Of a DNA stretch of 64,000 nucleotides, positions 1,761-63,705 are shown piece by piece. The first letter of the stretch is position 1; the number at the start of each line of letters is the position of its first letter. Under the pieces are notes generated by a model. It did no database searches and was not told the origin of the DNA. It saw only the letters and a program-made list of their open reading frames with translations. Both the position numbers and the translations under genes were made by a program. Source of the stretch: an uncultured Gemmiger sp. (GTDB taxonomy: Bacteria; Bacillota; Clostridia; Oscillospirales; Ruminococcaceae); NCBI GenBank assembly GCA_944388135.1, contig CALXHP010000071.1, positions 1 through 64,000 on the forward strand, given 5' to 3'.

Positions 1761-3287
1761 TTAGGCCACGGCATCCGGCCGTTCATACACCACCAGGTCC
1801 TGGGTGGAGACCACTTCCTGCCAGCCGTCCTGCAGCAGCCGGGCCTCGGCTTCCCCGCCATGGCCCACCATGGCGTAGCGGGACAGAATGGGCTTGTCCG
1901 GATCTGCCAGATAGGTATTATGGTCAAACTGGATGCCCATGCCGGCAGGGACGGCATACAGATACCCATGAAAAACATCGTCCGCATAAGAGTAGGCCAG
2001 CGTATGGTCCCAGGGGTCATCCGAATCCCGGGACTCCACCCTCTCGGTCAGTGCCTCTTCCACCGCCGTGATCTGGTCCCCCATTTCGGGGAACCAGGTG
2101 GACAGGCTGCTGCGGGTCATATTGAGGGGCAGCAGCGCAATGGCGATCACCGGCAGCCAGACCACCCCTTTTCCCGCATCCTCTATCATCCAGACCGCCA
2201 GCATCAGCACACAAAGTTCCACCAGATGCCGTGCGTTCAGATCATACAGGAACAGCAGGGCCAGGGCCACAATGCCCACACAAACCAGCAGGCAGACCTT
2301 CCACCGGATCTGCCGTCCGCGGCAGATGTCGTAGAGCAGAAGGCCGATGCTTACCAGAAACATGACCGCGAACATAACGCAGGCGGTGCCCACATATTGG
2401 GGGTCCCCCTGCAGCGTAGGCAGGATGTCCCAGGTCCATATTCTTTGCAGCAGCGCACCGGCGTCCTGGAGTTCGTACCAAATCCCGCCCAGAGGATCCC
2501 CCTGGAGAGCCATCTGAACGGCGGTGAAATCGATCCCGCCGTCACTGAAATAAGGCGCCGCCAGTTTTGCCATGGAAAACAGTGCTGTTCCGAAACTGAC
2601 CGCCGCCACGCCAAAACAGAGCCGCCGCCGGCGCACCACAGGCCACACGGCCACAACGGGGAACACAAAAAACAGCAGCGCATAAGGCCGGCATATGGTT
2701 TCCAGTGCACATGCCGCCAACGCCGCCGCAAACCAGCCGGCAGAAAAATGCCGCTGCAAAGACACCGTAGCGCCGATCAGCAGCAAGAGCAGCCCATAGT
2801 GCAGCGGTTCCGACGATCCGCCGAAAGCCGCGCTCAGGGGCCGCCAGAGGCAGACGGTTCCCAGCAGAAACACGATCTGCTGCCAGACCGAAAGGCGCGC
2901 CGCCCTTGCAAACACCGCAATGCCCGCCACGGTGAAAAAGATATTGCACCACAGCATGGTATTGACACTGCTGCCGAAGATAAATCCCGGCAGTGCATAC
3001 AGCCAGATCAGAAACGGGCCCCAGGTGCCGTAATTGCCCAGATCCGCGTGGCTTTCCTCGTACCCGAAATACCCCTGGGGGCCGCCCTTGGAAATAACGC
3101 TGACAACCTGCCGGTTGTAGAAAACCTCGTCGTTGTCCATGTTGGGGGCCAGCCAGATCTGGTTGAGGGGCGTCCGGAAAGCCAGCGTATAAAACACCAA
3201 CAAAAACAGGACTGCCCCCAAAACGCAGAGCAGCGCGTTGGGGGTCTTTTGCAGCCATTTTTTACAAAAATTCACAGGGCGATTCAC
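1761..3287 (-). CDS. Multi-membrane GT-C-like glycosyltransferase, paralogue A
   Basis: A 508-residue protein with about ten to twelve membrane helices and a soluble C-terminal tail. After the first helix (about 18-38) comes an outer loop with acidic residues (NMDNDEVFYNRQ near 51) and then GYFGYEESHAD, then more helices. This is the plan of GT-C glycosyltransferases, where acidic residues in the first outer loop bind a polyprenyl-phosphate-sugar. It shares the ESHAD block, the DSDDPWD block and the closing tail with the gene at 3852, so the two are paralogues. I chose the GTG start at 3287, seven bases after a GGAGGAG site that lies inside the end of the acetyltransferase gene. The function is inferred from topology and from the GT2/flippase neighbours; I do not recognise a named family. 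Confidence 0.7.
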   Translation of the reverse strand: MNRPVNFCKKWLQKTPNALLCVLGAVLFLLVFYTLAFRTPLNQIWLAPNMDNDEVFYNRQVVSVISKGGPQGYFGYEESHADLGNYGTWGPFLIWLYALPGFIFGSSVNTMLWCNIFFTVAGIAVFARAARLSVWQQIVFLLGTVCLWRPLSAAFGGSSEPLHYGLLLLLIGATVSLQRHFSAGWFAAALAACALETICRPYALLFFVFPVVAVWPVVRRRRLCFGVAAVSFGTALFSMAKLAAPYFSDGGIDFTAVQMALQGDPLGGIWYELQDAGALLQRIWTWDILPTLQGDPQYVGTACVMFAVMFLVSIGLLLYDICRGRQIRWKVCLLVCVGIVALALLFLYDLNARHLVELCVLMLAVWMIEDAGKGVVWLPVIAIALLPLNMTRSSLSTWFPEMGDQITAVEEALTERVESRDSDDPWDHTLAYSYADDVFHGYLYAVPAGMGIQFDHNTYLADPDKPILSRYAMVGHGGEAEARLLQDGWQEVVSTQDLVVYERPDAVA

Positions 3288-3291
3288 AGAT

Positions 3292-3837
3292 TCACTCCTC
3301 CCCCCGGGGGGCCGGGGACAGTTTGGCCATAAAAATCACATCACGGTACCGGCCATCCAGAAATACCATATCCCGGAAGACACCTTCCTGCACAAATCCC
3401 GCTTTTTCATAGCTGCGGCGGGCGGGCAGATTTTCCGCCAGCAGCCGCAGGCTGATGCGATGCAGACCCAGCTGTTCAAAGCCAAACCGGGTAAACAACT
3501 GGGCTGTCTCGGTGCCGAAGCCTTTGCCCCGGGCATCCTCTTCCCCGATAAAAATGCCGTACTCGGCACTGCGGTTGTCAGGGTCCACATCCCGGTAATA
3601 GACAGACCCCACCGGCCGGTCCTCTGCCTTATCCACAATGATATACTGCACCACCTGCCCGGTGGCCACCTTTGTGGCCAGCCAGTTGCGGTGCATTTCG
3701 GGGGTAAACCGCTGCCGGAAAATAAAGTTCTGCATGACAGACGGTGTGTTGCGCCAGGTCACAATATGGTCCGTATCCCCATCGGTGATGGGACGGAGTA
3801 CTACGCGCTCACCGGTAATGCACGGAAGTTTTTCCAT
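3292..3837 (-). CDS. GNAT N-acetyltransferase, RimJ/RimL-like
   Basis: A 181-residue acetyl-CoA-dependent acetyltransferase. It begins with the beta strand ITGERVVLRPITDGD typical of RimJ/RimL-type proteins. The acetyl-CoA pyrophosphate-binding segment (GEEDARGKGFGTET, a variant of Q/RxxGxG/A) lies near residue 100, and the family's closing motif (LRLLAENLPARRSYEKAGF) near 135. The ATG at 3837 is preceded by AGAGGGG. A GTG at 3855 overlaps the upstream stop but has no ribosome site of its own. It sits between two GT-C-like paralogues in an operon led by a WecE-like transaminase, so the likely substrate is the 4-amino group of a nucleotide amino sugar (compare WecD). That substrate is inference, and a protein or amino-acid target is possible. 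Confidence 0.82.
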   Translation of the reverse strand: MEKLPCITGERVVLRPITDGDTDHIVTWRNTPSVMQNFIFRQRFTPEMHRNWLATKVATGQVVQYIIVDKAEDRPVGSVYYRDVDPDNRSAEYGIFIGEEDARGKGFGTETAQLFTRFGFEQLGLHRISLRLLAENLPARRSYEKAGFVQEGVFRDMVFLDGRYRDVIFMAKLSPAPRGEE

Positions 3838-3851
3838 AAAAAATTCCCCTC

Positions 3852-5360
3852 TCACGAACGTTCATAGACGGTACAATAGTGCCCCTGATACAACAGCGTC
3901 CAGCCTTCGTTCTGCAGCCGCTGTTCCACGGCACTTCCGGAAGCGGTCATCACATACCGGGAACAGATCCCGTGGTCGGGGTCCTCCAGATAGTCCGCTT
4001 CATCGAACTGCAAGCCCATACCATCGGGCGCGGCGTAGAGCATTCCCACATGGGCGGCATCCCCGAAGGAATAGGCGATGGTGCGGTCCCACGGGTCGTC
4101 ACTGTCCACCGCCGCCTGGCTTTCCGTCAGCGCCGCCTCCAGGCCGGCGCTTTCCTCGGCCACCGCTTCGTGCCAGCCAGGCATCCCGAATCCGCCGGAA
4201 GCGGTCAGCCCCACGATGCCCACCGCCGTCAGCAGGGCAACCCCCGCCGCCGTTCCCGCGGCAGGCCGGGGACTTTCCATCACCAGGGCCGCCAGCAGCA
4301 GAATATCCAATACCAGCGTATGGCGGGAAGCTTCCGCCGTGCGGTACATCAGCATCAACGCAAAGAAAACCACCACGGCCGCCGCCACGGCACAGCCTTT
4401 CCAGCGTGCCGGCCGTCTGTGGCGCAGATCCCACACCAGGCACCCCGCCGTCACCGCCAGCAGCAGCAAAAACACGAGATAGTATCCCCCGCCGTTTCCC
4501 TGCAGGGCCCCGGCGATCTCCTGCCCTACCTGGGCAAAGGCCGTGCACAGCTTTCCCACCGTATAGCGGGCTGCGGAAAGAACCTGCAGATGGGCCAGCA
4601 TCTGCAAGGGGGTGGTATCCACATTGGTAAAGAAATAGGGCGCGTAAAATTTGGACATCAGCACCAGGGTGGACGCCAAAGACAGGGCCGCCCCCGCCAG
4701 ACAGCCCAGCAGTGCCCGCCGGCGGGGCCATGCCAGCACCAAGGGGTACAGCCAGTATACCGCGTTATACGGGCGGGCCAACGTGGCGGCGGCACACAAC
4801 AGGCACAACGCCGCCCAGGCCGTCTTGCGGCCGCTGCGGTGTACCAGCACCGCCGTGCCGGTAATGGCCAGGACCAATGCATAGTGCAGCGGCTCCTGCA
4901 TGGCAGAAAAAACATACCGGACAGGGGCATTCAGGCAAGCCAGCACCAGGGCAAAGGCCGCCTGCTGCCAGGCTTTGAGACGAGTCGCCCGGGCAAAGAC
5001 CATCCAGCCGGCCGCCACAAAAAACAGGTTGCACCACAGGAATGCATTCTGGCCCCGGAACACAAACCCCGGAATGGCATACATCCAGAAGATGGCCGGT
5101 CCCCAGGCGGCAAAGGTGCCGATGTCGGCATGGGACTCATTGAATCCGAAATAGCCCTGGGGAGCGCCGTACCGGACCACCGCCGCCAGCTGTTTGCTGT
5201 AGACCACTTCATCGCTCCAGGAGCTGGCGGGCAGATAGATCTGCGTCACCGGCACCCGGTAGACCAGCCATTCATACAGCAACAAAAAGGCCAGCGCGGC
5301 AGCCAGGGTGGCCACCGTGCCGAGCCAGAAAGATTTACTGCGCATAGAACGCCAGAACAT
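3852..5360 (-). CDS. Multi-membrane GT-C-like glycosyltransferase, paralogue B
   Basis: A 502-residue paralogue of the protein at 1761-3287, with the same order of parts. There is an N-terminal helix (about 12-32), an outer loop with SWSDEVVYSKQ near 48 and GYFGFNESHADIG near 73, many membrane helices, and a soluble tail with SDDPWDRTIAYSFGD and a final CTVYERS. The start overlaps the end of the transaminase gene by 26 bases; an internal ATG at 5345 is an alternative. Its stop overlaps a possible GTG of the acetyltransferase. Two related GT-C-like proteins in one operon suggest two successive sugar transfers, or one acceptor-specific copy each. No experimentally known relative is recognised by eye. 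Confidence 0.7.
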   Translation of the reverse strand: MFWRSMRSKSFWLGTVATLAAALAFLLLYEWLVYRVPVTQIYLPASSWSDEVVYSKQLAAVVRYGAPQGYFGFNESHADIGTFAAWGPAIFWMYAIPGFVFRGQNAFLWCNLFFVAAGWMVFARATRLKAWQQAAFALVLACLNAPVRYVFSAMQEPLHYALVLAITGTAVLVHRSGRKTAWAALCLLCAAATLARPYNAVYWLYPLVLAWPRRRALLGCLAGAALSLASTLVLMSKFYAPYFFTNVDTTPLQMLAHLQVLSAARYTVGKLCTAFAQVGQEIAGALQGNGGGYYLVFLLLLAVTAGCLVWDLRHRRPARWKGCAVAAAVVVFFALMLMYRTAEASRHTLVLDILLLAALVMESPRPAAGTAAGVALLTAVGIVGLTASGGFGMPGWHEAVAEESAGLEAALTESQAAVDSDDPWDRTIAYSFGDAAHVGMLYAAPDGMGLQFDEADYLEDPDHGICSRYVMTASGSAVEQRLQNEGWTLLYQGHYCTVYERS

Positions 5361-6465
5361 GGTCGATCACCCGGCTGCGGTCCGCTTCGGTCAGGCCGTA
5401 GTAGAGCGGCAGACGCACCAGACGTTCGCTCTCCTTGGTGGTATAGCGGTCCTCGCCGTCAAAGCGTCCGAATTTGAGGCCCGCCGGGGCGGAATGCAGC
5501 GGAATGTAATGGAATACCGCCAGAATGTCGTTTTCTTTCAGGTAGCGGATCAGCGCAGTGCGCTCCTCCAGGTCCTTGCATTTGAGATAGAACATATGGG
5601 CGTTATGAACGCAGTCCGCCGGAATGGTCTGCACTTCCACCTTGCCGGCCTCCACCAGGGGCCGGAAGGCTTCCCGGTAGGCCTTCCATGTCGCCATGCG
5701 GTTGTCGTTGATCTCGTCCGCATGGAGCAGCTGGGCCCACAGGTAAGCAGCATTCAGCTCGCTGGGCAGGTAGCTGTCGCCGAAATCCACCCAGGTGTAC
5801 TTGTCCACCTGGCCGCGGAAGAACTTGGCCCGGTTGGTGCCTTTTTCCCGCAGGATCTCAGCCCGTTCATTGTAATCGGGGTTGTTGATGACCAGGGCGC
5901 CGCCCTCGCCCATGGAGTAGTTTTTGGTCTCGTGGAAGGAATAACAGCCGAAGTCACCGATGGTTCCCAGTGCCTTGCCCTTGTAGCTGCTCATGACACC
6001 CTGGGCGGCGTCTTCCACCACCATCAGGTGATGGCGGTGGGCAATGTCCATGATGGTGTCCATCTCGCAGGCCACGCCCGCGTAGTGCATGACGATGATG
6101 ACCTTGGTCTTTTCGGTGATCGCCGCCTCGATCTTGGTCTCGTCGATGTTCATCGTATCGGGACGGATGTCCACAAACACCAGCCTGGCCCCCGCCAGTA
6201 CCGCCGCCGTGGCCGTGCTGGAAAAGGTATAGCTGGGCAGAATGACCTCATCCCCGGGCTGCAGGCCGCACAGCAGCATGGCCATATCCAGGGCTGTGGT
6301 GCCGCTGGTGGTCAGCAGGACCTTCTGGGCATGGAAGCGCTCTTCCAGCCAGGCATTGCACTTTTTGGTAAAGGCACCGTCGCCGCAGATCTTATGGGAA
6401 TCGATGGCCTCTTTTACATATTGAATCTCATCCCCGACGCAGGGGGGCACATTAAAAGGAATCAT
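5335..6465 (-). CDS. wecE: TDP-4-oxo-6-deoxy-sugar transaminase, WecE/RffA-like
   Basis: A 376-residue PLP enzyme of the DegT/DnrJ/EryC1 family, closest by eye to WecE (RffA), which makes TDP-4-amino-4,6-dideoxygalactose from TDP-4-oxo-6-deoxyglucose and glutamate. Visible marks are the start MIPFNVPP, LTTSGTTALDMA near 51, PSYTFSSTA near 77, the cofactor segment VVEDAAQG near 149, and the Schiff-base lysine in SFHETKNYSMGEGG (about Lys181). The ATG at 6465 has an AGAAGG site eight bases upstream; the 12-residue extension to 6501 is unsupported. It is the first gene of the operon and has a good promoter at 6510-6538. The enzymes that make the TDP-sugar are not in the window. Confidence 0.88.
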   Translation of the reverse strand: MIPFNVPPCVGDEIQYVKEAIDSHKICGDGAFTKKCNAWLEERFHAQKVLLTTSGTTALDMAMLLCGLQPGDEVILPSYTFSSTATAAVLAGARLVFVDIRPDTMNIDETKIEAAITEKTKVIIVMHYAGVACEMDTIMDIAHRHHLMVVEDAAQGVMSSYKGKALGTIGDFGCYSFHETKNYSMGEGGALVINNPDYNERAEILREKGTNRAKFFRGQVDKYTWVDFGDSYLPSELNAAYLWAQLLHADEINDNRMATWKAYREAFRPLVEAGKVEVQTIPADCVHNAHMFYLKCKDLEERTALIRYLKENDILAVFHYIPLHSAPAGLKFGRFDGEDRYTTKESERLVRLPLYYGLTEADRSRVIDHVLAFYAQ

Positions 6466-9109: not shown

Positions 9110-9814
9110 TCAGGTACGAGTTTCTTTTTTCCAACGGCTGGAAAGACGCTCCATCGCACGTTTCTCAATGCGGGAAATGTAGCTTCTGCTGATCCCCAGT
9201 TGTGCCGCCACCTCCTGCTGGGTCTGGGGCGGCCTGCCGTTCAATCCATAGCGGCAGGTCAGGACTTCCGCTTCCCGCGGGGGCAGCGTCTGCAACAGCC
9301 GGCGCAGCCTGGCCGCATCGGCACGGCGTTCGCAATCATCTTCCATGACCGTCGGGTCTGGCAGGGTATCCGCCAGGGTCAGCTGGCCCTCGCTGCCCTC
9401 CAGCGGTTCCTGCAGCGATATCTGTACCCCCTCCCGCCGGGTCCGCCGCAGTTCCATCCGCAGTTCATTTTCAATACACCGGCTGGCATAACTGGAAAAT
9501 TTGCTTGCCCTGCCCGGGTCAAAGGTATCCACCGCCTTGATCAGGCCAATGGTACCTATGGAGATCAGATCATCCTGGGCAGTTGTTGCCGCGTAGTATT
9601 TTTTGGTCACATGGGCCACCAGACGCAAATTGTGCCGGATCAGCAGATCCCGTGCCTCGGCCGCATCCGCGCCTCCTGCGCGCAGCCGGGCAAAGGTCTC
9701 TTTTTCCTTGGCCGGGGAAAGCGGACGCGGAAAAGAACCACTCTCCAGATGCAGCATCAAATACAGTACATGCCCGGCGGCAGCCTGCAGAAAAACGCCT
9801 AAAAATTCCAACAT
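9110..9814 (-). CDS. sigK: RNA polymerase sigma-K precursor (pro-SigK), late mother-cell sporulation
   Basis: A 234-residue sigma-70-family factor that matches SigK along its whole length. It begins with a hydrophobic pro-sequence (MLEFLGVFLQAAAGHVLYLM) like the one removed by SpoIVFB. Region 2 follows (IRHNLRLVAHVTKKYY near 60, DLISIGTIGLIKAVDTFDP near 80, ASRCIENELRMELRR near 109), then region 4 (LPPREAEVLTCRYGLNG near 177, and the DNA-binding LGISRSYISRIEKRAMERL near 209). The ATG at 9814 follows a GGGGGTGGGG site. The gene is continuous, with no skin-type insertion. An intact gene argues that the organism sporulates or did so recently. Confidence 0.88.
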   Translation of the reverse strand: MLEFLGVFLQAAAGHVLYLMLHLESGSFPRPLSPAKEKETFARLRAGGADAAEARDLLIRHNLRLVAHVTKKYYAATTAQDDLISIGTIGLIKAVDTFDPGRASKFSSYASRCIENELRMELRRTRREGVQISLQEPLEGSEGQLTLADTLPDPTVMEDDCERRADAARLRRLLQTLPPREAEVLTCRYGLNGRPPQTQQEVAAQLGISRSYISRIEKRAMERLSSRWKKETRT

Positions 9815-52971: not shown

Positions 52972-53403
52972 TTATTTTTCTTCGGTATCAGACGCGACAG
53001 GCCGGAAATCTTCCTGCACACCTTCGTTCAAGTCAAAGCACATGGTCTTTGCATCAGCAACCCAGAACCCGCGCACGCGGTACCGCTTTCCCGGAATCCA
53101 GCTTTCTCCCGTAACCGCACGCAGAGGCTCCAACAGGTTTTTATTGGCGATGGTCACAACGCCTTTCTGCTCACCCTTGGGCTTGGAAAATTTGAAGCCC
53201 TTCGGCTCGTTGCTCTTGCACATACGGATCGCGAACACCTTCGCCTTGGCATCCAGCAAACACAGAACGTAGGCCGGATACCCCAAATCCTCCAGTACCT
53301 TTTTCGTGAAAGTCACGCCATTCTGGTTCAGGAACATATCGGGATATGCGTTAATATTGGAATCAATCGTTTCAAAATTCAAAGCGGAAAAATCAAAATT
53401 CAT
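52972..53403 (-). CDS. Hypothetical protein of the mobile element
   Basis: A 143-residue soluble protein with MNFDFSALNFETIDSNINAY at its start and no signal or membrane segment. The middle has YVLCLLDAKAKVFAIRMCKS and the C-terminal part SWIPGKRYRVRGFWVADAKTM. I do not recognise a family. The ATG at 53403 follows AAAGGATG. It lies 14 bases downstream of the serine recombinase gene and so is probably co-expressed with it; a helper in recombination or an accessory factor is possible but unproven. Confidence 0.65.
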   Translation of the reverse strand: MNFDFSALNFETIDSNINAYPDMFLNQNGVTFTKKVLEDLGYPAYVLCLLDAKAKVFAIRMCKSNEPKGFKFSKPKGEQKGVVTIANKNLLEPLRAVTGESWIPGKRYRVRGFWVADAKTMCFDLNEGVQEDFRPVASDTEEK

Positions 53404-53417
53404 AATAGAACATCCTT

Positions 53418-54620
53418 TCACTTCTGCATATTTTGCGGTTCTTGTATCATTTTTACAAATTCCTGTCGCTCTGCAAACGACCAACGGGAATCCACAATCA
53501 GATACCCTTTGAACAAACCGTCTTTCAAACGGTTCACAATGAATCGGGTACCCAGCAATCTCAGTTTTGCTTTGGGGGGCGTACCACGTTTCTCTGTCAG
53601 CAGCTTTTGTACCTTTAGCCAATCTTCTTTTTTAACAATCGCTGTGTGATGGTTTTCCTTGAAGTACATATTCAAATCCGTATTTTTTACAGATCTATGT
53701 GTGCGAAAATCCTTGGTATAGGTTTTCTGCATCAAGGCATCTCCACAGTATTTTTCATTTCTTAGAATACTTCGAACGGTACCGGGAGACCAGCTATCAT
53801 TCCCCATCGGAGATTTGATCCCCTGCTCTGTCAATGCCGCTGCTATTTCTGCGGGTGCCGCTCCTTCCAAGCAGCTTTCATAGATATACTCGACAATTCG
53901 GGCCTCTGTAGGTTCAATCACAAGCCGTCCGAAGTGATCGCGATAGAATCCAAGCGTATTATGCACCGAGAATTTATAGATACCCTCAGCCATACGCCAG
54001 CGGATGCCAGCTTTGATTGCTTCACTCTTCTGCTGGGATTCCATTTCAGCCAGTGCGGATAGAAGCGCAATCAGCAGATTATTTTTGCCGTCACCAGTAT
54101 AGGTGATTCCTTCCGTCTCAAACTCGACGGATACCGGTGGATTCAGCGCAGACAGCGTCCGAAGATTATTCAGAATATCCACAATATTTCTTCCAAAACG
54201 ACTGATGCTTTTGGTTAATATCAGGTCAATTTTGCCATCCACAGCATCTGCAATCATTTTCTGAAAGCCGAGACGTTTTTCGATGGTGGTAGCGCTAATG
54301 CCTTCATCCTGATAAATCTCCACCATTTCCCATTCGGGATTAGCCTCTATGCGCTTTGTGAAATGATGCACCTGCATCGCAAAGCTGCCGACCTGCTGTT
54401 CCTCCTGTGTGCTGACGCGGCAGTACGCTGCTACTCGTAATTTTTTGAACGGAGCAGGAGCCTCCGCGCTTTTCTGCGGTGGAATCACAATAACGCCATT
54501 GCCGGACTGGTTGCGTGCAATCTCTTCCCGCATCTGGTTGCGCTTTTGATTTCTGCGTTCTGCCCTTGCGCTGGATCGCCGCATCGCCTCTATTTTTTGG
54601 GGATCAAGCGGTTTTGCCAT
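53418..54620 (-). CDS. Serine recombinase, resolvase plus recombinase domain
   Basis: A 400-residue serine recombinase. After a basic N-terminal tail of about 60 residues comes the resolvase domain with the catalytic serine in AAYCRVSTQEEQ (about Ser71). EIYQDEGISATTIEKRLGFQKMI follows near 102 and LILTKSISRFGRNIVDIL near 134, where the conserved arginine lies. The recombinase domain includes GFYRDHFGRLVIEP near 225, SPMGNDSWSPGTVRSILRNEKYCGD (about 271-295). It ends without the zinc-ribbon and coiled-coil found in full-length (about 500-600 residues) large serine integrases, so it is a short form or is C-terminally truncated. It could act as integrase or resolvase of the element. Confidence 0.87.
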   Translation of the reverse strand: MAKPLDPQKIEAMRRSSARAERRNQKRNQMREEIARNQSGNGVIVIPPQKSAEAPAPFKKLRVAAYCRVSTQEEQQVGSFAMQVHHFTKRIEANPEWEMVEIYQDEGISATTIEKRLGFQKMIADAVDGKIDLILTKSISRFGRNIVDILNNLRTLSALNPPVSVEFETEGITYTGDGKNNLLIALLSALAEMESQQKSEAIKAGIRWRMAEGIYKFSVHNTLGFYRDHFGRLVIEPTEARIVEYIYESCLEGAAPAEIAAALTEQGIKSPMGNDSWSPGTVRSILRNEKYCGDALMQKTYTKDFRTHRSVKNTDLNMYFKENHHTAIVKKEDWLKVQKLLTEKRGTPPKAKLRLLGTRFIVNRLKDGLFKGYLIVDSRWSFAERQEFVKMIQEPQNMQK

Positions 54621-54769: not shown

Positions 54770-54800
54770 AAAAAAGGCAGCAGAAACACATCTGCTGCCC
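54770..54800 (-). terminator. Terminator of the defence operon
   Basis: On the minus strand GGCAGCAGA (54791-54799 complement) pairs with TCTGCTGCC (54776-54784 complement), followed by six T residues. It lies 23 bases past the last gene and ties the 4-TM gene to the operon above. The remaining gap to 54621 holds only very short frames. Confidence 0.85.
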
Positions 54801-54822
54801 CCGAATATTTCGGCATTTAGAA

Positions 54823-55263
54823 TCATTTGACTGATTTCCCAAGGGAATTCACCAAAAACAGGAGAATAAGCCAAAGGAGAAGAATATTCGATGAAAAAAG
54901 GCCGTATGATACAGCTCCTCCCGCTTTTAACAGCAACGGAGAAAAGCTGATGTTTGACGGAATCAAAAACAGACAGCTTACCACAATCAGCAGAATGCAT
55001 GAAATACCTGCATACCGAAAATATCCAGCTAAAACCCCCAGCAATGTTTTCGTTGGCTGCTCTTTGTCCGGTGTTTCTTTCAGCTCTTTGGCATATTGGC
55101 TTCCCAACAGTGCAGAAACAGCCGCAATGTATACACCCATTGCAATAGAAGCTACCGTGACAGCAATCTCTGCGATTGGTTCAAAGCTCAAATCGAACAT
55201 AAACGCCGCAGCGGTAGTAACTATTACGCAAAGCAAAATCTGGCGCTTATGGCGTTTATACAT
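54823..55263 (-). CDS. Four-TM membrane protein co-encoded with the type III restriction operon
   Basis: A 146-residue protein with four membrane helices at about residues 9-26, 32-53, 83-103 and 119-142, and a charged cytoplasmic loop (GSQYAKELKETPDKEQPTK) between helices 2 and 3. I chose the ATG at 55263: its AGGTGA site overlaps the stop of the gene upstream, so translation is coupled. It is the last gene before the operon terminator. I do not recognise a family. A small 4-TM protein paired with a soluble partner recalls the layout of Kiwa (KwaA with KwaB), but no sequence match is claimed. In a defence operon it may be a membrane-disrupting or sensing part. Confidence 0.7.
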   Translation of the reverse strand: MYKRHKRQILLCVIVTTAAAFMFDLSFEPIAEIAVTVASIAMGVYIAAVSALLGSQYAKELKETPDKEQPTKTLLGVLAGYFRYAGISCILLIVVSCLFLIPSNISFSPLLLKAGGAVSYGLFSSNILLLWLILLFLVNSLGKSVK

Positions 55264-55269
55264 GGACAA

Positions 55270-56055
55270 TCACCTCAATTCCTTTAGCAGAAGCTCCTTC
55301 ACTTCATCGGGCGTAAATTGTTCATTTTCGTCTTTGATCGGATGAATCTCGAGATGCTTCAATAAAGAGGAAAAATCAAAGGTTTGCTCTACGCCTTCGT
55401 CATCGCATCCGATTATGATGACATTGTCAAATTCTTCTTTATGATGTCTGAAAATGTCTATGATTTGCCTGCCGCCACCATGCACTGGAATATCGCCATA
55501 TGTCATTTTCAGCTGAATCTTGCTTGGCAAATCTTGTCCCCACATATTTCCGATCTGCGTAAATAAGTCGCTGTTTCGACTGAACAGATTGTCAACTTGC
55601 GTATATTGAAATCCACGGATGGTTTTTACCCGATCGCAAAATTCATCCACTGATGCGTAAACATTGTTGATTTTGAACTCTTTTTGAAGTGTATCACTCA
55701 GGTATTTTTCCAGAAAAGGCCGTCGCGTCATGTCATTAAGATACAGCATATGCGTTGCACAATCATAACAGGCAAAAAATTGCTGCTTCGGCTCTATTTG
55801 TTCTTTAGACCTCGGATTCGGCTGCCTTTCGCCAGTTTCTCTGTTGATTACAAAATCGCGGAATCTTTTTGCATCATCATAGTCACAGGACATCCAGAAA
55901 AATCTTTCCTCTACAATCTCCATCTCGATTGAGTACAGATATTTCTGGCGCACGGGTCTATATGTACGCAATCCTTTCTCGATCACTGCCTCAAAATCGT
56001 CTATTGCCGCTTCCCGTATTCCATCCACACGCAAGAGAAAATTACAAAACTTCAA
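55270..56055 (-). CDS. Unrecognised 261-aa protein co-encoded with the type III restriction operon
   Basis: A soluble protein with no signal or TM segment. It is rich in charged and aromatic residues. Visible blocks are YLYSIEMEIVEERFFWMSCD near 38, FFACYDCATHMLYLNDMTRR (about 93-112), DEFCDRVKTIRGFQYTQ near 137, and the acidic end IIIGCDDEGVEQTFDF near 216. The start is a TTG at 56055 with a strong GGAGGAGG site; a GTG at 56085 would add ten residues. It lies 37 bases after the Res gene and overlaps translational signals with the 4-TM gene downstream. No family is recognised. Its place suggests a defence-related role with the membrane protein. Confidence 0.7.
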   Translation of the reverse strand: MKFCNFLLRVDGIREAAIDDFEAVIEKGLRTYRPVRQKYLYSIEMEIVEERFFWMSCDYDDAKRFRDFVINRETGERQPNPRSKEQIEPKQQFFACYDCATHMLYLNDMTRRPFLEKYLSDTLQKEFKINNVYASVDEFCDRVKTIRGFQYTQVDNLFSRNSDLFTQIGNMWGQDLPSKIQLKMTYGDIPVHGGGRQIIDIFRHHKEEFDNVIIIGCDDEGVEQTFDFSSLLKHLEIHPIKDENEQFTPDEVKELLLKELR

Positions 56056-56091: not shown

Positions 56092-58710
56092 TCACAACGC
56101 GCGAAGCAACTCCAAAAACTGACTCATGCTGACTGCGCCACTGGGCAGATTATCCCCGTCCCGGAACACCATGTAGTAGCGATACTGATTTCCGGTTGCA
56201 TTGCGCCATGCACGGCCCACTTCGATTTTGTCACGGCTGTCATCGTTTTTCAGGTGATCGCCCTTTGTTTCTACCAAAATAACCTTCCCGCTGTTGGTCA
56301 TGAGCATAATATCCGGGTAATGATTGATAAAGCCGTTGATTGCAAACCCCTGCCGCACAATATTCCGATGCCACCAGCGGATATTGGGCAGCGCAGTCAG
56401 TTCCATAACCAGATCCTGCTCCAACTGGTTCATATCTTCCTCGGCCTGATAGAGCGATCCGCCAAACATATCTGTGCTGCTGACAGGATGAATTACGCTG
56501 GGCAGCTGGTAAGACGGCCTGCATACGATCCGTTCCGTTTCCAGCCATTGGGTAAAGGTCTCTTTGTAGTGCTGCGTCAGAAGCTGCTCAATCTTTCTGC
56601 GGATTTTTTCAGCGTAACCCAGCGGCGCTTTTTCCATCGCCGCAAGCTGCGCCTTATCCATATCATCCACAATGCGCTCAACATAGGCGGAAAGTTCCCC
56701 GGCACCCACCATGTTCAGTTTGTTGAGCTGCCGCAGCATCATTGCCTTGCACTGGCGTACCCGGCCTTCCGGCGGCAGGTTATTGAAATACTCTTTGAAA
56801 TACCGCTGATCCGCACTGGACATTTTGAATACTTTGGGCAATCCGCCTTCATTCTGGCGCACATCCACTTTGACAATTTCATCATCAGCGGCAGCAAAGT
56901 CAATATCGTAGGGTTTGCCTTTCAGGGTAAACCCTTCGGCCAGCTGCTCTTTTTCCAGCAGTTCAAAATCCCCATCGGTAAACAGCGTCTGGGGGATCAC
57001 CTGAAAGAACTGCGGAATCATCAGCGCGGCAATGTCCTCCTGAAACTGCGGCTGCACATGGAATGTCGTCACCTGTTCCCGCACCTCCCAGGGAAGATTT
57101 TGTGTCTGCGGGTCACTCCCGCCCTGACGGATTGCATCATTGTAGGCGTTGCCCGCCTTTTCTGCTTCGTCCAGCATAGTGTCGGCTTTGGGGGTGATTT
57201 CGGGCTGTTCCTGCTGCTGTCTGCGGCGTTCCAGCTCTTCGCCAATAATTTTACCGTCCAGCTGGGAAAAATCGTCCTGTGCCTCTGCCGGTTCTGCGGA
57301 CACTTCGGGAATGACCATCTGCACCGGGTCGGGAGACACCGGCTGCTGTGGGGCAGGCTCGAACAGGCGGCAATCCCGCTCGCTGAAACCAGCATTGTTC
57401 AAACCCTTTACAATGCGCTGCACCGTATCGTTAAAATTGGCGGAAGATGTGAGCACATAGGACATATTCAGCGCAGGCTGGGTGTGCTGGCAGGTATGGG
57501 GCAGGCGGAGAATCCGTCCCAGAATCTGCTCCACATCTACCTGACTGGTCTTGTTGGCAAGAGAGGCCAGAATATAGGCAAAGGGGCAGTCCCATCCCTC
57601 TTTCAGGGCATTGACGGTGATGATGTAGCGCACCGGACACTCCGGGGAAAGCAAATCCACATTTTTCAGTTCGTTCACATCGGCGGTGCGGATGGCGATA
57701 TGTTCGGCGGGGATTCCCGCATTTTTCAGCTCGTCCCGCAGTTTTTCAAAGGTGGCTGCGTCCTCCTTGCCCTTGGGCTGCGCCTGAAACAGGGCAATGG
57801 GGCGGATGTATTTCCCGGTTTTCTGATATTCCGCCTCGGCTCGTTTTTCCAGATTCCGGCGCAGATCAATGGTGTCAATGAGAACCTCTGACTGCTTATC
57901 CCGGTTATAGACGATCACCGGCAGCTTGACCATGTGCTCCGCTTTCAGCTGCACCGCATCCACATAGGAGATGATGTTGCTCTCCTTTTTGGGGGTGGCG
58001 GTCAGATCCAGCACAAAGCAGGGATTAAAATTTGTCAGCATTTCCAGACTGAGACTGGAACGGGCATGGTGGCTCTCGTCCACAATCACCAGCGGGTTGA
58101 GCTGATTGATGATCTGAAACAGGGCGGTTTCGTCAGCGTCCTGAATGGGATTTTCCGGCTTGCCCAGCACTTTGGCGAACTGCGCCAGATTGCTGTTTTC
58201 CTGATAGGCTTTCAGCCCCTCCTTGCCCCGGCCACGGAAGGAGTCGTAGGACAGCACCATGATGGAAAGCTGCTCTGTCACGGAGGTGGGATTGAAGTTC
58301 TGCCCGTTTAACAGTTCCTGCTTGGTGTATACCTCCACCCGGCTGCCGAAATCCACATCAATTTTCTGGCGGTAATCGTGATTGGAGTCTTTGAGGCTCT
58401 TGACCGTCTGGGTCAGAATTGCGTCCGAGGGTACAAGCCAGACCACCGCTTTGGTTTTGGTGACGGGCAGCGCATCGAACACCGGGCGGATGGCGTTGCA
58501 GGCAAGGAACGTCTTTCCGCCGCCGGTGGGCACCTTGAAGCAGAGATTGGGCACACCGGGCAGAATATCCTGATAGCGTCCCAACGATGGGGCGCTTTTT
58601 TCCTGCCAGAACAGGCGGAATGCCGCCGCATAGTTTTGGGTTTGGTTCAGCAGCTGCAAATAGCGGGTCAAATCCGCAATGACTGCTTTCTGATAGCTTT
58701 TCAGTTCCAT
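56092..58710 (-). CDS. res: Type III restriction endonuclease subunit Res
   Basis: An 872-residue DEAD/DEAH-type (SF2) helicase-nuclease. Walker A is KVPTGGGKTFLA (about 59-70), the DExH box VIVDESHHARSSLS near 222, LDLTATPKKESN near 248, and the arginine-finger motif QILGRILRLPHTCQ near 401. The C-terminal PD-(D/E)XK nuclease has Asp800, Glu814 and Lys816 (PDIMLMTN, then VILVETKG). It needs the Mod partner, encoded 13 bases upstream, to cut DNA after ATP-driven movement between two sites. The ATG at 58710 follows AAGGAGGG. All key residues are present, so it should be active. Confidence 0.92.
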   Translation of the reverse strand: MELKSYQKAVIADLTRYLQLLNQTQNYAAAFRLFWQEKSAPSLGRYQDILPGVPNLCFKVPTGGGKTFLACNAIRPVFDALPVTKTKAVVWLVPSDAILTQTVKSLKDSNHDYRQKIDVDFGSRVEVYTKQELLNGQNFNPTSVTEQLSIMVLSYDSFRGRGKEGLKAYQENSNLAQFAKVLGKPENPIQDADETALFQIINQLNPLVIVDESHHARSSLSLEMLTNFNPCFVLDLTATPKKESNIISYVDAVQLKAEHMVKLPVIVYNRDKQSEVLIDTIDLRRNLEKRAEAEYQKTGKYIRPIALFQAQPKGKEDAATFEKLRDELKNAGIPAEHIAIRTADVNELKNVDLLSPECPVRYIITVNALKEGWDCPFAYILASLANKTSQVDVEQILGRILRLPHTCQHTQPALNMSYVLTSSANFNDTVQRIVKGLNNAGFSERDCRLFEPAPQQPVSPDPVQMVIPEVSAEPAEAQDDFSQLDGKIIGEELERRRQQQEQPEITPKADTMLDEAEKAGNAYNDAIRQGGSDPQTQNLPWEVREQVTTFHVQPQFQEDIAALMIPQFFQVIPQTLFTDGDFELLEKEQLAEGFTLKGKPYDIDFAAADDEIVKVDVRQNEGGLPKVFKMSSADQRYFKEYFNNLPPEGRVRQCKAMMLRQLNKLNMVGAGELSAYVERIVDDMDKAQLAAMEKAPLGYAEKIRRKIEQLLTQHYKETFTQWLETERIVCRPSYQLPSVIHPVSSTDMFGGSLYQAEEDMNQLEQDLVMELTALPNIRWWHRNIVRQGFAINGFINHYPDIMLMTNSGKVILVETKGDHLKNDDSRDKIEVGRAWRNATGNQYRYYMVFRDGDNLPSGAVSMSQFLELLRAL

Positions 58711-58723
58711 GCTGTGACCCTCC

Positions 58724-60313
58724 TTACAGTCTGGTAATGTCGCGAGGTATTTTCTTGAACACAATGCCCATCTGGGCCAGCTTTTCTTCCCCGATGGCGC
58801 AGCGGTCGGCGTAGATCACCGTACACTCTCCCTTTTGGGTGAGTGTGGCAAGAAAAGCATAATCCAGCACCGTAATGCGCTGGGGTTCGTAGTAAAAATA
58901 ATATGCGGTGTGGTTATGGCTGCCCAGATAGTAGGCGTTTTCCCCAGCAGGCGGAGCATAGGGAGCTTTGGTCTCCATAAACCAGATGTATTCCCGGATT
59001 TTCTCCGGGGCTACTTCCTCATTCAGATTTTCGCCAATGAGCAGGGGCTGGCCCAGATCGTAAAAGCTGAAACTGCCGCCGGTGCCCTCCACGGCATTTT
59101 TGCCCTCGCCATAGCCCTGAATGACCCGCTTGACACGCTCGGCGGTGATGCTGTCGGCGTAGTCCATCATTTCCACCAGAATGAATTTGCGGTTGCCGCC
59201 GTCTGCCTTGTTCATGTTCAGCACCGCATGGGCGGTGGTGCCGGAACCGGCAAAAGAGTCGAGGATAATGGAATCTGGGTCTGAGGCAATCTGAAAAATT
59301 CTCTCAAGTAAGCGAGTTGGTTTTGGCGTATCAAACGAATCAGCATCGCCAAGGATTGAAATGATTTGCTTTTTAGCTTCATCTGTGTGTCCCACTTCTT
59401 CATGTGGCCACCATGTCCAAGGCACCATCCCTTCTACTTCCGACAGATAGCGAATGATACTTGGTTGAGAATCGCCATTCTTACCAAAATAAATACGTCC
59501 AGTTGCAAGTAGCTTTTTGTATTCTGATTCTACGGTACTCCAACACCGGCCTTGAGGCGGATAACAAATCTTCCCACTTGGTGTGGTAATTGGATACATT
59601 TGATTGGGTCGATACCCTTGTGCAGTCATTGGAACGGCACGCCAGCGCCCTTTGGGATCATTGTTAGGATTTTTGTATATTTTAGCTGATTTTTCGTCAA
59701 ATCCAACACGGTGTCGAATTGCTTTGAAATTTTCTACATCAGAAGCATAAACTAAAATATATTCGTGTGCATCTCCAATAGCACCCCTATTTTCTCTTGA
59801 ATAGCGTTTCTGCCAGGTAATAGTTGCGACATGACGATTGCTGCCGAATATTTCGTTGCAAACCAATTTCAAATTGGCCATCTCATTTTCATCAATGGAA
59901 ATAAATATGGAGCCATCAGTTGGGTGTAATAGCCGCTGCAATAACTTCAAACGGGGATACATCATACACAGCCACTTGTCATGCCGGGAAAGGTCCTCGC
60001 CTTCTTTTCCCACCACTTCGCCCAGCCACTTTTTGATCTTGGGGTCATTGACATTATCGTTATACACCCAGCCCTCGTTGCCGGTGTTGTAGGGCGGATC
60101 GATATAGATGCACTTCACCCGTCCCTCATACCGGGGCAGCAGGGCTTTCAAGGCCTCCAGATTGTCACCCCGGATGGCCATATTCTCGCTGCCGTTGTCG
60201 GCCTCCGTCTGGCCGTTTTCATCAAAGCTGTACCGGCGCTCCAACACCCGGAACGGCACCTCCTGATGGTGGTTGATCACTTTCTCTTTTCCAATCCATT
60301 CCAGTGTCGGCAT
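58724..60313 (-). CDS. mod: Type III DNA methyltransferase subunit Mod
   Basis: A 529-residue beta-class N6-adenine methyltransferase. Motif IV DPPYNTGNE is at residues 72-80 and precedes the AdoMet motif I DSFAGSGTTAHAV (about 352-364), the beta order. The target-recognition domain lies between them (about 165-335). The coding sequence for that middle part (roughly 59275-59965) is visibly more AT-rich than the flanking conserved parts, a sign of domain replacement. TAGGAGG precedes the ATG. It methylates the host site and gives Res its specificity. The recognised sequence cannot be predicted by eye. Confidence 0.93.
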   Translation of the reverse strand: MPTLEWIGKEKVINHHQEVPFRVLERRYSFDENGQTEADNGSENMAIRGDNLEALKALLPRYEGRVKCIYIDPPYNTGNEGWVYNDNVNDPKIKKWLGEVVGKEGEDLSRHDKWLCMMYPRLKLLQRLLHPTDGSIFISIDENEMANLKLVCNEIFGSNRHVATITWQKRYSRENRGAIGDAHEYILVYASDVENFKAIRHRVGFDEKSAKIYKNPNNDPKGRWRAVPMTAQGYRPNQMYPITTPSGKICYPPQGRCWSTVESEYKKLLATGRIYFGKNGDSQPSIIRYLSEVEGMVPWTWWPHEEVGHTDEAKKQIISILGDADSFDTPKPTRLLERIFQIASDPDSIILDSFAGSGTTAHAVLNMNKADGGNRKFILVEMMDYADSITAERVKRVIQGYGEGKNAVEGTGGSFSFYDLGQPLLIGENLNEEVAPEKIREYIWFMETKAPYAPPAGENAYYLGSHNHTAYYFYYEPQRITVLDYAFLATLTQKGECTVIYADRCAIGEEKLAQMGIVFKKIPRDITRL

Positions 60314-60422: not shown

Positions 60423-61247
60423 TTATGCAATCAGTTTTCGGACTGCATCCAGAATCTGCTCATAGGTAATGTCCTGCGCATAGGCGAATTGCTTGCGGTA
60501 TTTTTCCCACATGGCCCGCAACTGGGGGCTTTCCTCAATGTTGCGCAGGATTCCCGGCACATCGGCGATCTGTTCTGTGGTACCGCGGTGGGCCGCTGTT
60601 GCCCGCAGTGCCTGAGCGAATACGTCCTTGTCAAATTTCTGGGTGGAAGCCAGTATGTAGGCATCATAGAAATCTCTGGGGCGAGTATTGAACACGCTGC
60701 GCCTCAGAATGGTTTCTACCTTCTCGGCCATAACGGTCTCGATGTTGTAGGCCCACAGTTCGTAAGACTTTTCCTCGTCAAAAATCTCGGCAAACTGATA
60801 GGGCACCGCATGGGGCGTGATGGCATCTCCGGTGGACACATCGATGCTCAGCGGCGTAAGCAGCGTTTCAAATTTCGCGGTCAGGGCGACCCGATAGCCG
60901 CCGTAAATATCGTCCTCCCGGATGGGAGAAATCGTACCGAACTCAAAAGTCACTTCATCGTCAGAGGGCATGGCACAAATTTCTTCCAGCGCGGAGCGAA
61001 TTGCCTCCGGCGTTAAAGGCAGATTTTTCAGGGTGGTGTCCAGATCCATCGTTGCCCGGTTATCCAGACCCACAATGGCCGCCACCAGCATACCGCCTTT
61101 CAGAACAAACTTCTCTTTGTAGGCAGAGGCGGCAAGACGCACCAGCAGCCGTTCAAACATATAGTTCTGCAAAATCACCTGGGCGGGGATATTTTTCTGT
61201 TTGGCAATGTTTCGGATTTTCGCCTTCAAACTCATGGCTTTGCTCAC
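60423..61247 (-). CDS. abiEii: AbiEii-type nucleotidyltransferase toxin
   Basis: A 274-residue member of the AbiEii family. The nucleotidyltransferase core has FVLKGGMLVAAIVGLDNRATMDLDTTLKN (about 46-74), giving the GG and the DxD-type metal residues (Asp in MDLDTT). AEKVETILRR near 180 and RPRDFYDAYIL near 194 are the family's second signature. The start is a GTG at 61247 overlapping the antitoxin stop, with GGAGG at seven bases. AbiEii toxins block growth by adding nucleotides to targets such as tRNA, giving phage exclusion when the type IV antitoxin fails. Confidence 0.92.
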   Translation of the reverse strand: MSKAMSLKAKIRNIAKQKNIPAQVILQNYMFERLLVRLAASAYKEKFVLKGGMLVAAIVGLDNRATMDLDTTLKNLPLTPEAIRSALEEICAMPSDDEVTFEFGTISPIREDDIYGGYRVALTAKFETLLTPLSIDVSTGDAITPHAVPYQFAEIFDEEKSYELWAYNIETVMAEKVETILRRSVFNTRPRDFYDAYILASTQKFDKDVFAQALRATAAHRGTTEQIADVPGILRNIEESPQLRAMWEKYRKQFAYAQDITYEQILDAVRKLIA

Positions 61248-61837
61248 AACAGCACCTCCAAATACTGGCGCAGAACATTGGCAACCCGCATCTGCTTTGC
61301 GTAGGAATTCAGCTGATTCAAATCTTTTTTCGGGCTGGCTGCATACAGCTTTAACGCCGCCAGAAAAGTTTCCGTCCCCAGCTTATTGCGGCTGCGGACA
61401 CAGTCGCAGATGGTACGTTCCAGATCATAGCAGGGCACCAGATTCCCGGCAGGTGTTTTTTTCTCTGTCCGGCCCAAGGTAAACAACTCCGGCTTGATAT
61501 AGTACACCTTGCACTCCGCCTTGATTGCCGCCGAAGGGATGCATCCGGATGGGGCGGTGATCGTGTGTTCAAAGGGAGTGCGGTCAGAAATGCCGTGGAG
61601 GAACAAGGCCGTCTCGTGGGAGAAAACAATCTGAGCCGACCGCCTGCTGATAGACAGCAGTTCATCTTCCAGTTCATCCGGCAGAATATACTGCCCTTTT
61701 ACAATGCGCTGGATCTTATTTGCTTTGCACAGCTTGTAGAGCATGGCCTTGGATATGCCGCGCTGCGCCGCAACTTTTGTTTCGATAATCCCGCCATGTT
61801 CTCTGGCAATGTCAGTAAGTTCGGCAATATAGTTCAT
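61244..61837 (-). CDS. abiEi: AbiEi-type antitoxin and transcriptional repressor
   Basis: A 197-residue antitoxin of type IV systems. The N-terminal winged helix is IAREHGGIIETKVAAQRGISKAMLYKLCKANKIQRIVKGQYILPD (about 11-54), the AbiEi_4-like DNA-binding part. The C-terminal domain has VFSHETALFLHGISDRTP (about 70-87) and DLERTICDCVR near 135, both family marks. GAGGTGA precedes the ATG. It binds its own promoter, where two similar 20-bp sites are seen (61878-61897 and 61934-61953). It is the first gene of the whole defence operon. Confidence 0.92.
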   Translation of the reverse strand: MNYIAELTDIAREHGGIIETKVAAQRGISKAMLYKLCKANKIQRIVKGQYILPDELEDELLSISRRSAQIVFSHETALFLHGISDRTPFEHTITAPSGCIPSAAIKAECKVYYIKPELFTLGRTEKKTPAGNLVPCYDLERTICDCVRSRNKLGTETFLAALKLYAASPKKDLNQLNSYAKQMRVANVLRQYLEVLL

Positions 61838-61867: not shown

Positions 61868-61896
61868 ATTATAGCCACTATTACGATGATAGTCAA
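61868..61896 (-). promoter_or_regulatory. Promoter of the AbiE-type III restriction operon
   Basis: On the minus strand TTGACT (61891-61896) and a perfect TATAAT (61868-61873) with a 17-base spacer. The proximal AbiEi-type operator covers the -35 and spacer. Confidence 0.85.
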
Positions 61897-62359: not shown

Positions 62360-62690
62360 ATGGCCAACCGCACCAGACCAATTCGCATTGAAATCTGCGT
62401 GACCGAGCAGGAGCGCCAGTTGATTCGCCACAAGATGGCACAGCTTGGCACAAAAAACATGGGGGGCATATGCAAGGAAAATGCTCATTGACGGTTACAT
62501 CATCAAGGTGGATTACACCGAACAAAAAAAGTTGGCAGCTGCCGTCAGCCGGGTTTCTGCTAACATCAACCAGATTTGTCGCCGCATCAACCAGACCGAT
62601 CACTTCTACGCCGAGGATGTAGCCGAATTAAAGGCGAAACAGAAAGAAATCTGGGAACTACTGAAACAGGCACAACAAGCTGAACTATGA
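62360..62690 (+). pseudogene. mobC: MobC-like mobilisation protein, frameshifted
   Basis: The gene starts at 62360 (AAAGGAGG upstream) and reads MANRTRPIRIEICVTEQERQ and MAQLGTKNMG. At a run of six G residues (62461-62466) it shifts frame and soon stops at 62491. The next frame continues the same protein (GAYARKMLIDGYI, then VSANINQICRRINQT and ELKAKQKEIWELLKQ) to 62690. Removing one G restores an intact 109-residue MobC, a ribbon-helix-helix relaxosome protein. It is either a true mutation, slippage-tuned expression, or a sequencing error. No relaxase gene follows. Confidence 0.75.
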
Positions 62691-62707
62691 TCTCCGCATT
62701 GGGCTTA

Positions 62708-62738
62708 TCCGTGTACGGTTTTTCCGTATACGGCTTTT
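62708..62738 (+). repeat. Tandem palindromic repeats
   Basis: Two adjacent 15-16-base copies (62708-62722 and 62723-62738) each carry a palindrome, CCGTGTACGG and CCGTATACGG, followed by a T run. They lie in the 228-base gap between mobC and the initiator gene, where I see no other gene, and could be initiator binding sites. Confidence 0.5.
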
Positions 62739-62918
62739 CAGTTCATGGATTTTGCACCCCTCAAGACCGTACCCTAACCGGATTTCTTGGCCGTGGATAT
62801 TCAGACGGTCATCATGTATGAAATTCATACCCTAATCAATAAGAAAAAATCAACTCTCAAGAAAATCATCCATCAATCCAATCAATACACAGAATGGATA
62901 GATGGGCTAGGAGGATGT

Positions 62919-63332
62919 ATGAAACCGTTATTCTACAAGTTCACCACGGAAAGTCCGGCAGCCTCATATATACCGTTTCCACGCTTTCTAATGGACGATT
63001 GCTTTACAGGTCTCGGCAACGATGCAAAGGTGCTGTATGCACTGATGTTGGATCGGGCAAGCATTTCCAAGGTCAACGGCTATATTGAAAAGGATGGCGC
63101 GATCCGGCTCTATTTTACGGTGGAGCAGGCAGAAGAAAAGCTGCATCGCAGCCGTCAAAGCGTCACACGGATCTTTCAGCAGCTGGAAAAGAGCGGTTTA
63201 ATTTGCCGCAAAAAACAGGGTCTCGGCAGACCGGCAGTGATAACACTCAATTATCCGGCCAACGCTAAGCTCATTACAAAGAAGGAGGTAGCACTGTATG
63301 TGGAGGAAAATATGTGTGCAGAAACCGATTGA
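62919..63332 (+). CDS. repA: RepA_N-type replication initiator-like protein (N-terminal domain)
   Basis: A 137-residue protein matching the N-terminal DNA-binding domain of the RepA_N initiator family. Marks are FPRFLMDDCFTGLGNDAKVLYALMLDRASIS (about 23-53), FTVEQAEEKLHRSRQSVTRIFQQLEKSGLI (helix-turn-helix, about 69-98) and RKKQGLGRPAVITL. Only the N-terminal domain is present; full RepA_N proteins are about 300 residues or more. The ATG at 62919 follows AGGAGG; the longer frame from 62787 is unsupported. It may support transient replication or maintenance of the excised element. Confidence 0.8.
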   Translation: MKPLFYKFTTESPAASYIPFPRFLMDDCFTGLGNDAKVLYALMLDRASISKVNGYIEKDGAIRLYFTVEQAEEKLHRSRQSVTRIFQQLEKSGLICRKKQGLGRPAVITLNYPANAKLITKKEVALYVEENMCAETD

Positions 63333-63705
63333 TCGGCAGCCTGATGGCACCTTACCCCGCCTTACACCCAAGCAGGCCCGCAGCGTCCGAAAGCTCGTCA
63401 AAGGATGCTGCAATTACGCAGACGGCAGCTGCCTGCTGCTGGATGACGGCGAAGAGCAGGTCTGTCCGCAGAGCATCAGTTACAGCCTGAATTGCCGGTA
63501 TTTCCGTCACGCAGTGCTGCCCAGTGACCCAAATCTTGAAAATGAGATTTTACGCCCCCGGGGAAGCAGGCGCTGTCAAATTTGCGGTTCTTATTTCATT
63601 GCCGGTTCTGGACGTGCCAAATACTGTGTCGACTGTGCAGCCAACGTACATCGGAAACAGAAAGCCGCCTATGCCCGAAAACGGCGGTCGAGAGTAGACA
63701 AATAA
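63298..63705 (+). CDS. Cysteine-rich VLP-domain protein
   Basis: A 135-residue protein of the Cys_rich_VLP family common in clostridial conjugative and mobilisable elements. Marks are LTPKQARSVRKLVKGCCNYADGSCLLLDDGEEQVCPQ (about 22-58), the AVLPSDPNLEN block from which the name derives, and a C-terminal zinc-ribbon-like pair CQICGSYF and AKYCVDCAANVHRRQ-like (CVDC near 113). It ends in a basic tail. AAGGAGG precedes the ATG, which overlaps the initiator gene by 35 bases. The molecular role is unknown. Confidence 0.88.
   Translation: MWRKICVQKPIDRQPDGTLPRLTPKQARSVRKLVKGCCNYADGSCLLLDDGEEQVCPQSISYSLNCRYFRHAVLPSDPNLENEILRPRGSRRCQICGSYFIAGSGRAKYCVDCAANVHRKQKAAYARKRRSRVDK

Follow-up and report, generated by a model that had tools for sequence, protein, structure and literature searches.

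The locus raises the question of what two unnamed genes do behind a type III restriction system, and whether they belong to that system or stand apart from it. In the window (the whole stretch of 64,000 nucleotides from an uncultured Gemmiger sp. that was analysed), the gene for the restriction subunit Res is followed on the minus strand by mS (55270-56055), which encodes a soluble protein of 261 amino acids, and by mT (54823-55263), which encodes a protein of 146 amino acids with four hydrophobic segments (residues 9-27, 35-53, 85-103 and 120-138); mS has no such segment. The open reading frame (ORF) of mS begins with a TTG codon 36 nt past the end of Res (56092) and is preceded by a Shine-Dalgarno site (GGAGGAGG), and the codon aligned with this TTG is also the start in two relatives (TTG in L017 and ATG in L019). 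At the junction of the two genes (GAATTGAGGTGATTGTCCATG), the ribosome site AGGTGA covers the mS stop codon and 6 nt separate mS from mT, which starts with ATG in the window. An AGG-containing site recurs just upstream of mT in six other junctions (L015, L017-L020 and L022), and in both prophage loci described below the two genes overlap by 8 nt. The operon ends in an intrinsic terminator on the minus strand (54770-54803), of which the hairpin (54803-54770; -19.9 kcal/mol, z -5.16) is followed by a T run and was equalled by none of 200 shuffled sequences. Comparison of the window with L015 gave a dN of 0.125 and a dS of 3.1 for mS, and a dN of 0.13 and a dS of 1.37 for mT. For both genes, dN was far below dS in the three of seven locus pairs with measurable dS (window-L015, L015-L016 and L020-L022), dS lying outside the range of the method for both genes in the remaining four. 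The initial annotation had described a soluble and a four-transmembrane (four-TM) gene after Res, with coupled translation and a single strong terminator, and all of this is borne out: mS and mT are real genes, and purifying selection acts on both.

The two genes close a six-gene series on the minus strand in the order AbiEi, AbiEii, Mod, Res, mS and mT. AbiE is a toxin-antitoxin pair, here made up of the antitoxin and regulator AbiEi (61244-61837; PF13338, E 2e-6, above the cut-off) and the nucleotidyltransferase toxin AbiEii (60423-61247; PF08843, E 1e-46); these precede the type III methyltransferase Mod (58724-60313; PF01555; PADLOC MTase_III, E 1e-208) and Res (56092-58764, with the ORF taken from its first possible start; PF04851, E 3.5e-18; PADLOC REase_III). 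Thus the run from Res through mS to mT stands as first described, but the start of the operon does not, since AbiEi and AbiEii come before Mod and Res. Upstream of AbiEi lies a minus-strand promoter-like site (61868-61896; TTGACT-17-TATAAT), which matches the consensus at 11 of 12 positions and is a consensus match only. All other promoter-like sites on the minus strand of the window score 9/12 or less, and the number of such sites is at chance level (9 found, 8.3 expected). We infer that transcription may run from AbiEi to mT, from gene spacing and the promoter- and terminator-like sites only. Just beyond the terminator, and part of the mobile setting, is a serine recombinase gene (53418-54620, minus strand; PF00239 and PF07508), which is found at the same position in L014-L017. 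Adjoining it is an unannotated gene (52972-53622) that had no match in Pfam and has DNA-level relatives in the same place in L015-L017. On the other side, MobC and RepA_N are encoded at 62445-63705 and a tyrosine integrase just past the end of the window (contig C71 of genome G000, 64145-65338), which together place the operon on a mobile element.

To ask whether the pair belongs to a named family, we searched curated libraries with the window proteins and their relatives. The pair had been called unrecognised, and it remains so in the libraries searched: the curated thresholds of Pfam and NCBIfam were reached by neither protein of the window, neither matched PADLOC, and neither matched a PHROG at E <0.01. 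Eight mS members, searched as well, likewise gave no match above a curated threshold. Profiles of mS and of mT found none of the PDB sequences at E 10, and the Pfam, NCBIfam, PADLOC and PHROG searches found no recognised effector domain in mS. Several weak matches were set aside as chance or below the cut-off: DUF5362 (E 0.009) and DUF1275 for mT; phrog_20163 (E 0.0014) for the mT of L022; CotH, matched by three of the eight mS members (0.034 at best); a capping methyltransferase model, matched by one of the eight; and two stray PADLOC matches, Specificity_I (E 0.0003) and Csn2 (E 0.0008), in one of the eight mS members each.

Relatives of mS are rare. Within the family Ruminococcaceae, 4 of the 297 genomes searched carry one, the genome of the window itself counted, and the draws from the order, class and phylum, which overlap at least in that genome, returned it alone (1/394, 1/391 and 1/388). 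At least seven mS loci were present in a contig collection of 84,980 species and one IMG/VR contig was found by mS, with none in 72,556 plasmid records or in 50,697 phage records. After merging (L007 and L011 with L018; L009 and L013 with L020; L008, L012 and L023 with L022), there are at least nine distinct mS loci, and mT lies directly downstream of mS in all nine found. In five (the window, L014 from Gemmiger sp. An50, L015, L016 and L017) the pair is behind a type III Res or its remnant and is followed by a similar serine recombinase, the contigs of L015, L016 and L017 starting within a Res that resembles that of the window. In L018 (Faecalibacterium UBA7177) it follows a type I HsdR (PF12008 and PF04313) by 20-29 nt, which brings to six of nine the loci with the pair directly behind Res or HsdR. 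The contig of L019 (Pseudoflavonifractor MSJ-30) ends upstream of the pair and carries RhuM and an opposite-strand type I R fragment downstream, and L020 and L022 (the latter being the IMG/VR contig) are prophages with the pair shortly upstream of terminase genes, named by eye. The position in a defence locus claimed at the outset therefore holds, with seven of the nine loci found linked to restriction-modification (RM) genes, two in prophages and none elsewhere, although several loci share descent, so that independent settings number about four. The suggested co-occurrence with type III RM holds in five of nine loci, but a tie to it does not, given the type I system of L018 and the prophages without adjoining RM. 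The distances between mS proteins correlate with those between mT proteins (r 0.935, permutation P 0.0001; eight loci, to which common descent contributes).

Is the pair, then, a part of the RM system that it follows? When L018 was compared with the window, DNA identity was 72-76% on the RepA/MobC/AbiE side and 70% in mS, and no DNA was shared between the AbiE side and mS, where a type I cassette in L018 occupies the place of the type III genes of the window. The related elements thus have their AbiE genes and the mS-mT pair in common and differ in the type I or type III system between them, an RM exchange slot (L018 1091-10746 versus window 62032-55319). In L014, about 2.6 kb of the RM genes is gone (L014 8836-8851 versus window 59838 to 57251), truncating both Mod and Res, yet mS (99%) and mT are intact. 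In the prophage locus L020, three hairpins that resemble terminators (8012, 9621 and 11164; 0.4 expected) set mS-mT apart from a second soluble and four-TM pair, and promoter-like sites lie upstream of mS at 9766 and 9798; in L022 a single terminator-like site is present at 9127, against 0.8 expected, and a site resembling a promoter lies at 7789. Since promoter-like sites come in near-chance numbers in AT-rich DNA, the terminators of L020 are the stronger evidence. From the RM swapped in L018, the RM gutted in L014 and the separate unit between terminators in L020, we conclude that mS-mT is an autonomous, mobile cassette, putatively of defence type, and no part of the RM enzyme.

Our leading proposal, which we hold at a little short of an even chance, is that the two genes form a mobile abortive-infection cassette, mS-mT, acting like RexA/RexB of phage lambda. 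In this scheme, mS would be a RexA-like sensor or trigger in the cytoplasm, responding to a phage protein or to replicating phage DNA; it would then engage the cytoplasmic loop between TM2 and TM3 of mT, and mT, as a putative RexB-like membrane effector, would open or damage the membrane, so that the infected cell would stop growth and the phage would not be released. Placed behind a restriction system, the pair could add a further barrier to phages that have evaded cleavage. We infer the sensing of infection, the contact between mS and mT, the membrane effect and the defence role itself from the likeness to Rex systems set out below.

An orphan copy of mT lies on the phage-like contig L057 (IMGVR_UViG_3300003103_000043). 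Positions 4884-5446 of this contig match window 55380-54818 with 99.5% identity over 563 bp; they comprise the complete mT and, from mS, only the last 36 or so codons without a start, in the same orientation as the neighbouring genes. The orphan is flanked by a gene matching phrog_8684 and by a Lar-like restriction-alleviation gene, and the contig carries an integrase. At the left junction the shared sequence amounts to only about 5 bp, which argues against a chimera driven by repeats; coming from this single contig, the orphan could be a real capture or an assembly chimera. In lambda, according to PMC12894663, exclusion is lost when one of the two Rex proteins is in excess over the other; one reading of the orphan is a decoy against the mS-mT pair, a hint at counter-defence. 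A fuller scenario, unlikely as a whole though not fanciful, would be that a RexAB-type suicide pair left prophages to become an exchangeable back-up in RM islands that fires when restriction is evaded, and that phages of the same hosts captured mT alone, beside the Lar-like gene of L057, as a decoy that upsets stoichiometry and turns a part of the defence against it. The same orphan would also suit an inhibitor, as expected if the roles were reversed as in Butters gp30/gp31, in which case mS would have the antiviral or toxic effect and mT would hold it quiet at the membrane until infection. We regard this as rather unlikely: the Butters pair has a similar layout, and according to PMC12894663 its cytosolic protein acts and its membrane protein sequesters, but mS lacks a recognised effector domain in the searches run and the orphan comes from one, possibly chimeric, contig.

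Another reading is that mS-mT serves the mobile elements themselves, as a module for their maintenance or for the control of lysogeny, and is no phage defence. Its settings are mobile indeed (the element with RepA_N, MobC and integrase, and the prophages), and lambda RexA also tunes the switch between lysis and lysogeny (PMC11077077); however, a maintenance module would not be expected behind RM genes in six of nine loci, nor in an operon that already holds the AbiE toxin-antitoxin pair, and we consider this reading improbable.

The initial annotation had named Kiwa as the analogue, and each system does consist of one four-TM and one soluble protein. A Kiwa-like mode of action without suicide, in which mT would sense injection at the membrane and anchor mS, and mS would bind incoming phage DNA, has this design in its favour, along with the action of KwaA and KwaB at the membrane (PMC12904381). 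We rejected the analogy since domain, gene order and profile all fail. None of the eight mS members matched the KwaB domain PF16162 at E up to 10, and the four-TM KwaA gene lies upstream of kwaB, whereas mT lies downstream of mS. In hhalign comparisons, mS versus KwaB gave P 0.62, with 73 of 105 decoys scoring equally well, and mT versus one protein in the KwaA position gave P 0.36, with 30 of 65 decoys scoring equally well; the decoys are mechanical ORFs, some surely not genes, and the set of 65 derives from 18 ORFs. The acidity of mS also speaks against it, and we give a Kiwa-like action very little probability. We credit just as little an accessory role in RM, whether as regulator, as membrane tether of the nuclease or as a guard set off by inhibition of RM, since the place directly behind Res or HsdR in six of nine loci and the common expression of the first and the last gene in an operon have to be set against the type I system of L018, the gutted RM of L014 and the two prophages with none beside the pair.

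If mS-mT does act like RexA/RexB, a pair of RexAB layout behind restriction operons, kept through an RM swap, would mean that defence by membrane collapse can couple to restriction, and would raise the question of whether mS-mT acts only when restriction fails. It would also add a family unnamed in the libraries searched to a small group: in PMC12894663 the RexAB-like systems described so far number only five, and the paper states that the trigger of lambda RexAB is still unknown after 70 years. None of the titles and abstracts listed in our literature searches mentions an RM operon with a pair of RexAB type, although with incomplete coverage this does not prove absence.

Prophages hold further pairs of this general build. 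Butters gp30/gp31 is, like mS-mT, a soluble and four-TM pair, and differs in the length of gp30 (403 amino acids) and in partner roles reversed relative to the RexAB type; sequence kinship with mS-mT was not detected. A second, unnamed family (family 2) of prophage pairs has a soluble protein of 286-329 amino acids followed by a four-TM protein of 158-183 amino acids and is represented by L020 (8242-9604), L026/L027 (L026 5857-7432) and L029/L034 (L029 791-2373). The L020 pair (286 and 158 amino acids) stands in tandem just upstream of mS-mT. Other relatives adjoin an integrase in the Acetoanaerobium phage ANDSL2_ph1 and lie near repressor-like genes and a recombinase, named by eye, in G1037/L034. 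Directly ahead of the L029 pair is a gene for 338 amino acids (2391-3404), nucleoid-associated-like by eye. Among the five genome matches of the family 2 profile, L030-L032 are ABC transporters and were rejected, and L033 was left out of the reading. The mT profile showed weak similarity to the family 2 membrane proteins in TM2-TM3 (P 0.003), but 2, 5 and 8 of 65 decoys equalled or beat the single members, so that this likeness is only suggestive. Colinear hhalign stretches between mS and the soluble proteins of family 2 scored within the decoy range (16, 50 and 28 of 105 decoys equal), and kinship is therefore not claimed. Soluble and four-TM prophage pairs may form a larger unnamed class.

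The named RexAB-type pairs compared were lambda RexA/RexB, Sbash gp30/gp31, CarolAnn gp44/gp43 and Pseudomonas putida RexABpp. The fold of RexA comprises a split globular domain and a dimerisation domain (8TWQ). None of the eight mS members matched the RexA model (PF15969) at E up to 10 and none of five mT members the RexB model (PF15968) at E up to 1, while lambda RexA and RexB, as controls, matched these models. Comparison of mS and mT with four Rex-like pairs by hhalign detected no kinship (P 0.13-0.79). With the same method, however, lambda RexA, Sbash gp30, CarolAnn gp44 and Butters gp30 gave P 0.16-0.68 against one another, barring two pairings (Sbash-CarolAnn, about 1e-74; lambda-Butters, 0.022 and 0.037), and since it misses most accepted RexA-like pairs too, the absent profile match is weak evidence either way. 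By sequence, kinship with the RexAB type is unproven, the likeness being one of layout. The isoelectric point of mS is 5.0-5.5 in seven of eight members and 6.6 in the other, acidic in comparison with lambda RexA (8.6) and nearer to Sbash gp30 (6.1) and CarolAnn gp44 (5.6), and two acidic RexA-like proteins bind DNA, according to PMC11077077.

It is in layout that the likeness to RexAB lies. In lambda, which is the nearest to mS-mT in protein sizes, rexA (279 amino acids) is followed by rexB (144 amino acids), as mS (261) is here by mT (146), and the TM segments of RexB (8-26, 48-66, 84-102 and 116-134) are close in position to those of mT. A simple hydropathy cut-off found four segments in the mT of six of eight relatives and three in L015 and L016. 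Both ends of the TM protein are predicted to be cytoplasmic in RexB-type proteins and in mT; a cytoplasmic TM2-TM3 loop with invariant residues is common to mT and the RexAB-type membrane partner, and in mT its length is close to that in Sbash gp31 and CarolAnn gp43. Across eight relatives, 7 of 31 loop positions are invariant versus 10 of 115 elsewhere in mT (Fisher P 0.04); a tighter stretch (66-84) gave P 0.002, but was picked once the data had been seen. The N-terminus and TM2 of mT are also conserved, by mean entropy more strongly than the loop. In PMC6426596, two changes in the loop of Sbash gp31 abolish defence, and a model of a soluble sensor and a membrane channel is put forward for that pair. 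For P. putida, PMC12894663 describes a case built on HHpred and structure, in which excess RexA triggers the four-TM RexB to cause membrane damage and growth arrest. In setting, mS-mT shares prophage carriage with the RexAB type in two of nine loci and differs in the other seven, which are in islands beside RM; the prophage copies sit before terminase genes, a link to a repressor not being shown. Overall, RexA/RexB, which the initial annotation did not consider, fits better than Kiwa as an analogue of mS-mT, and by gene order, protein sizes, topology and loop the pair would best be described as an abortive-infection pair of the RexAB type.
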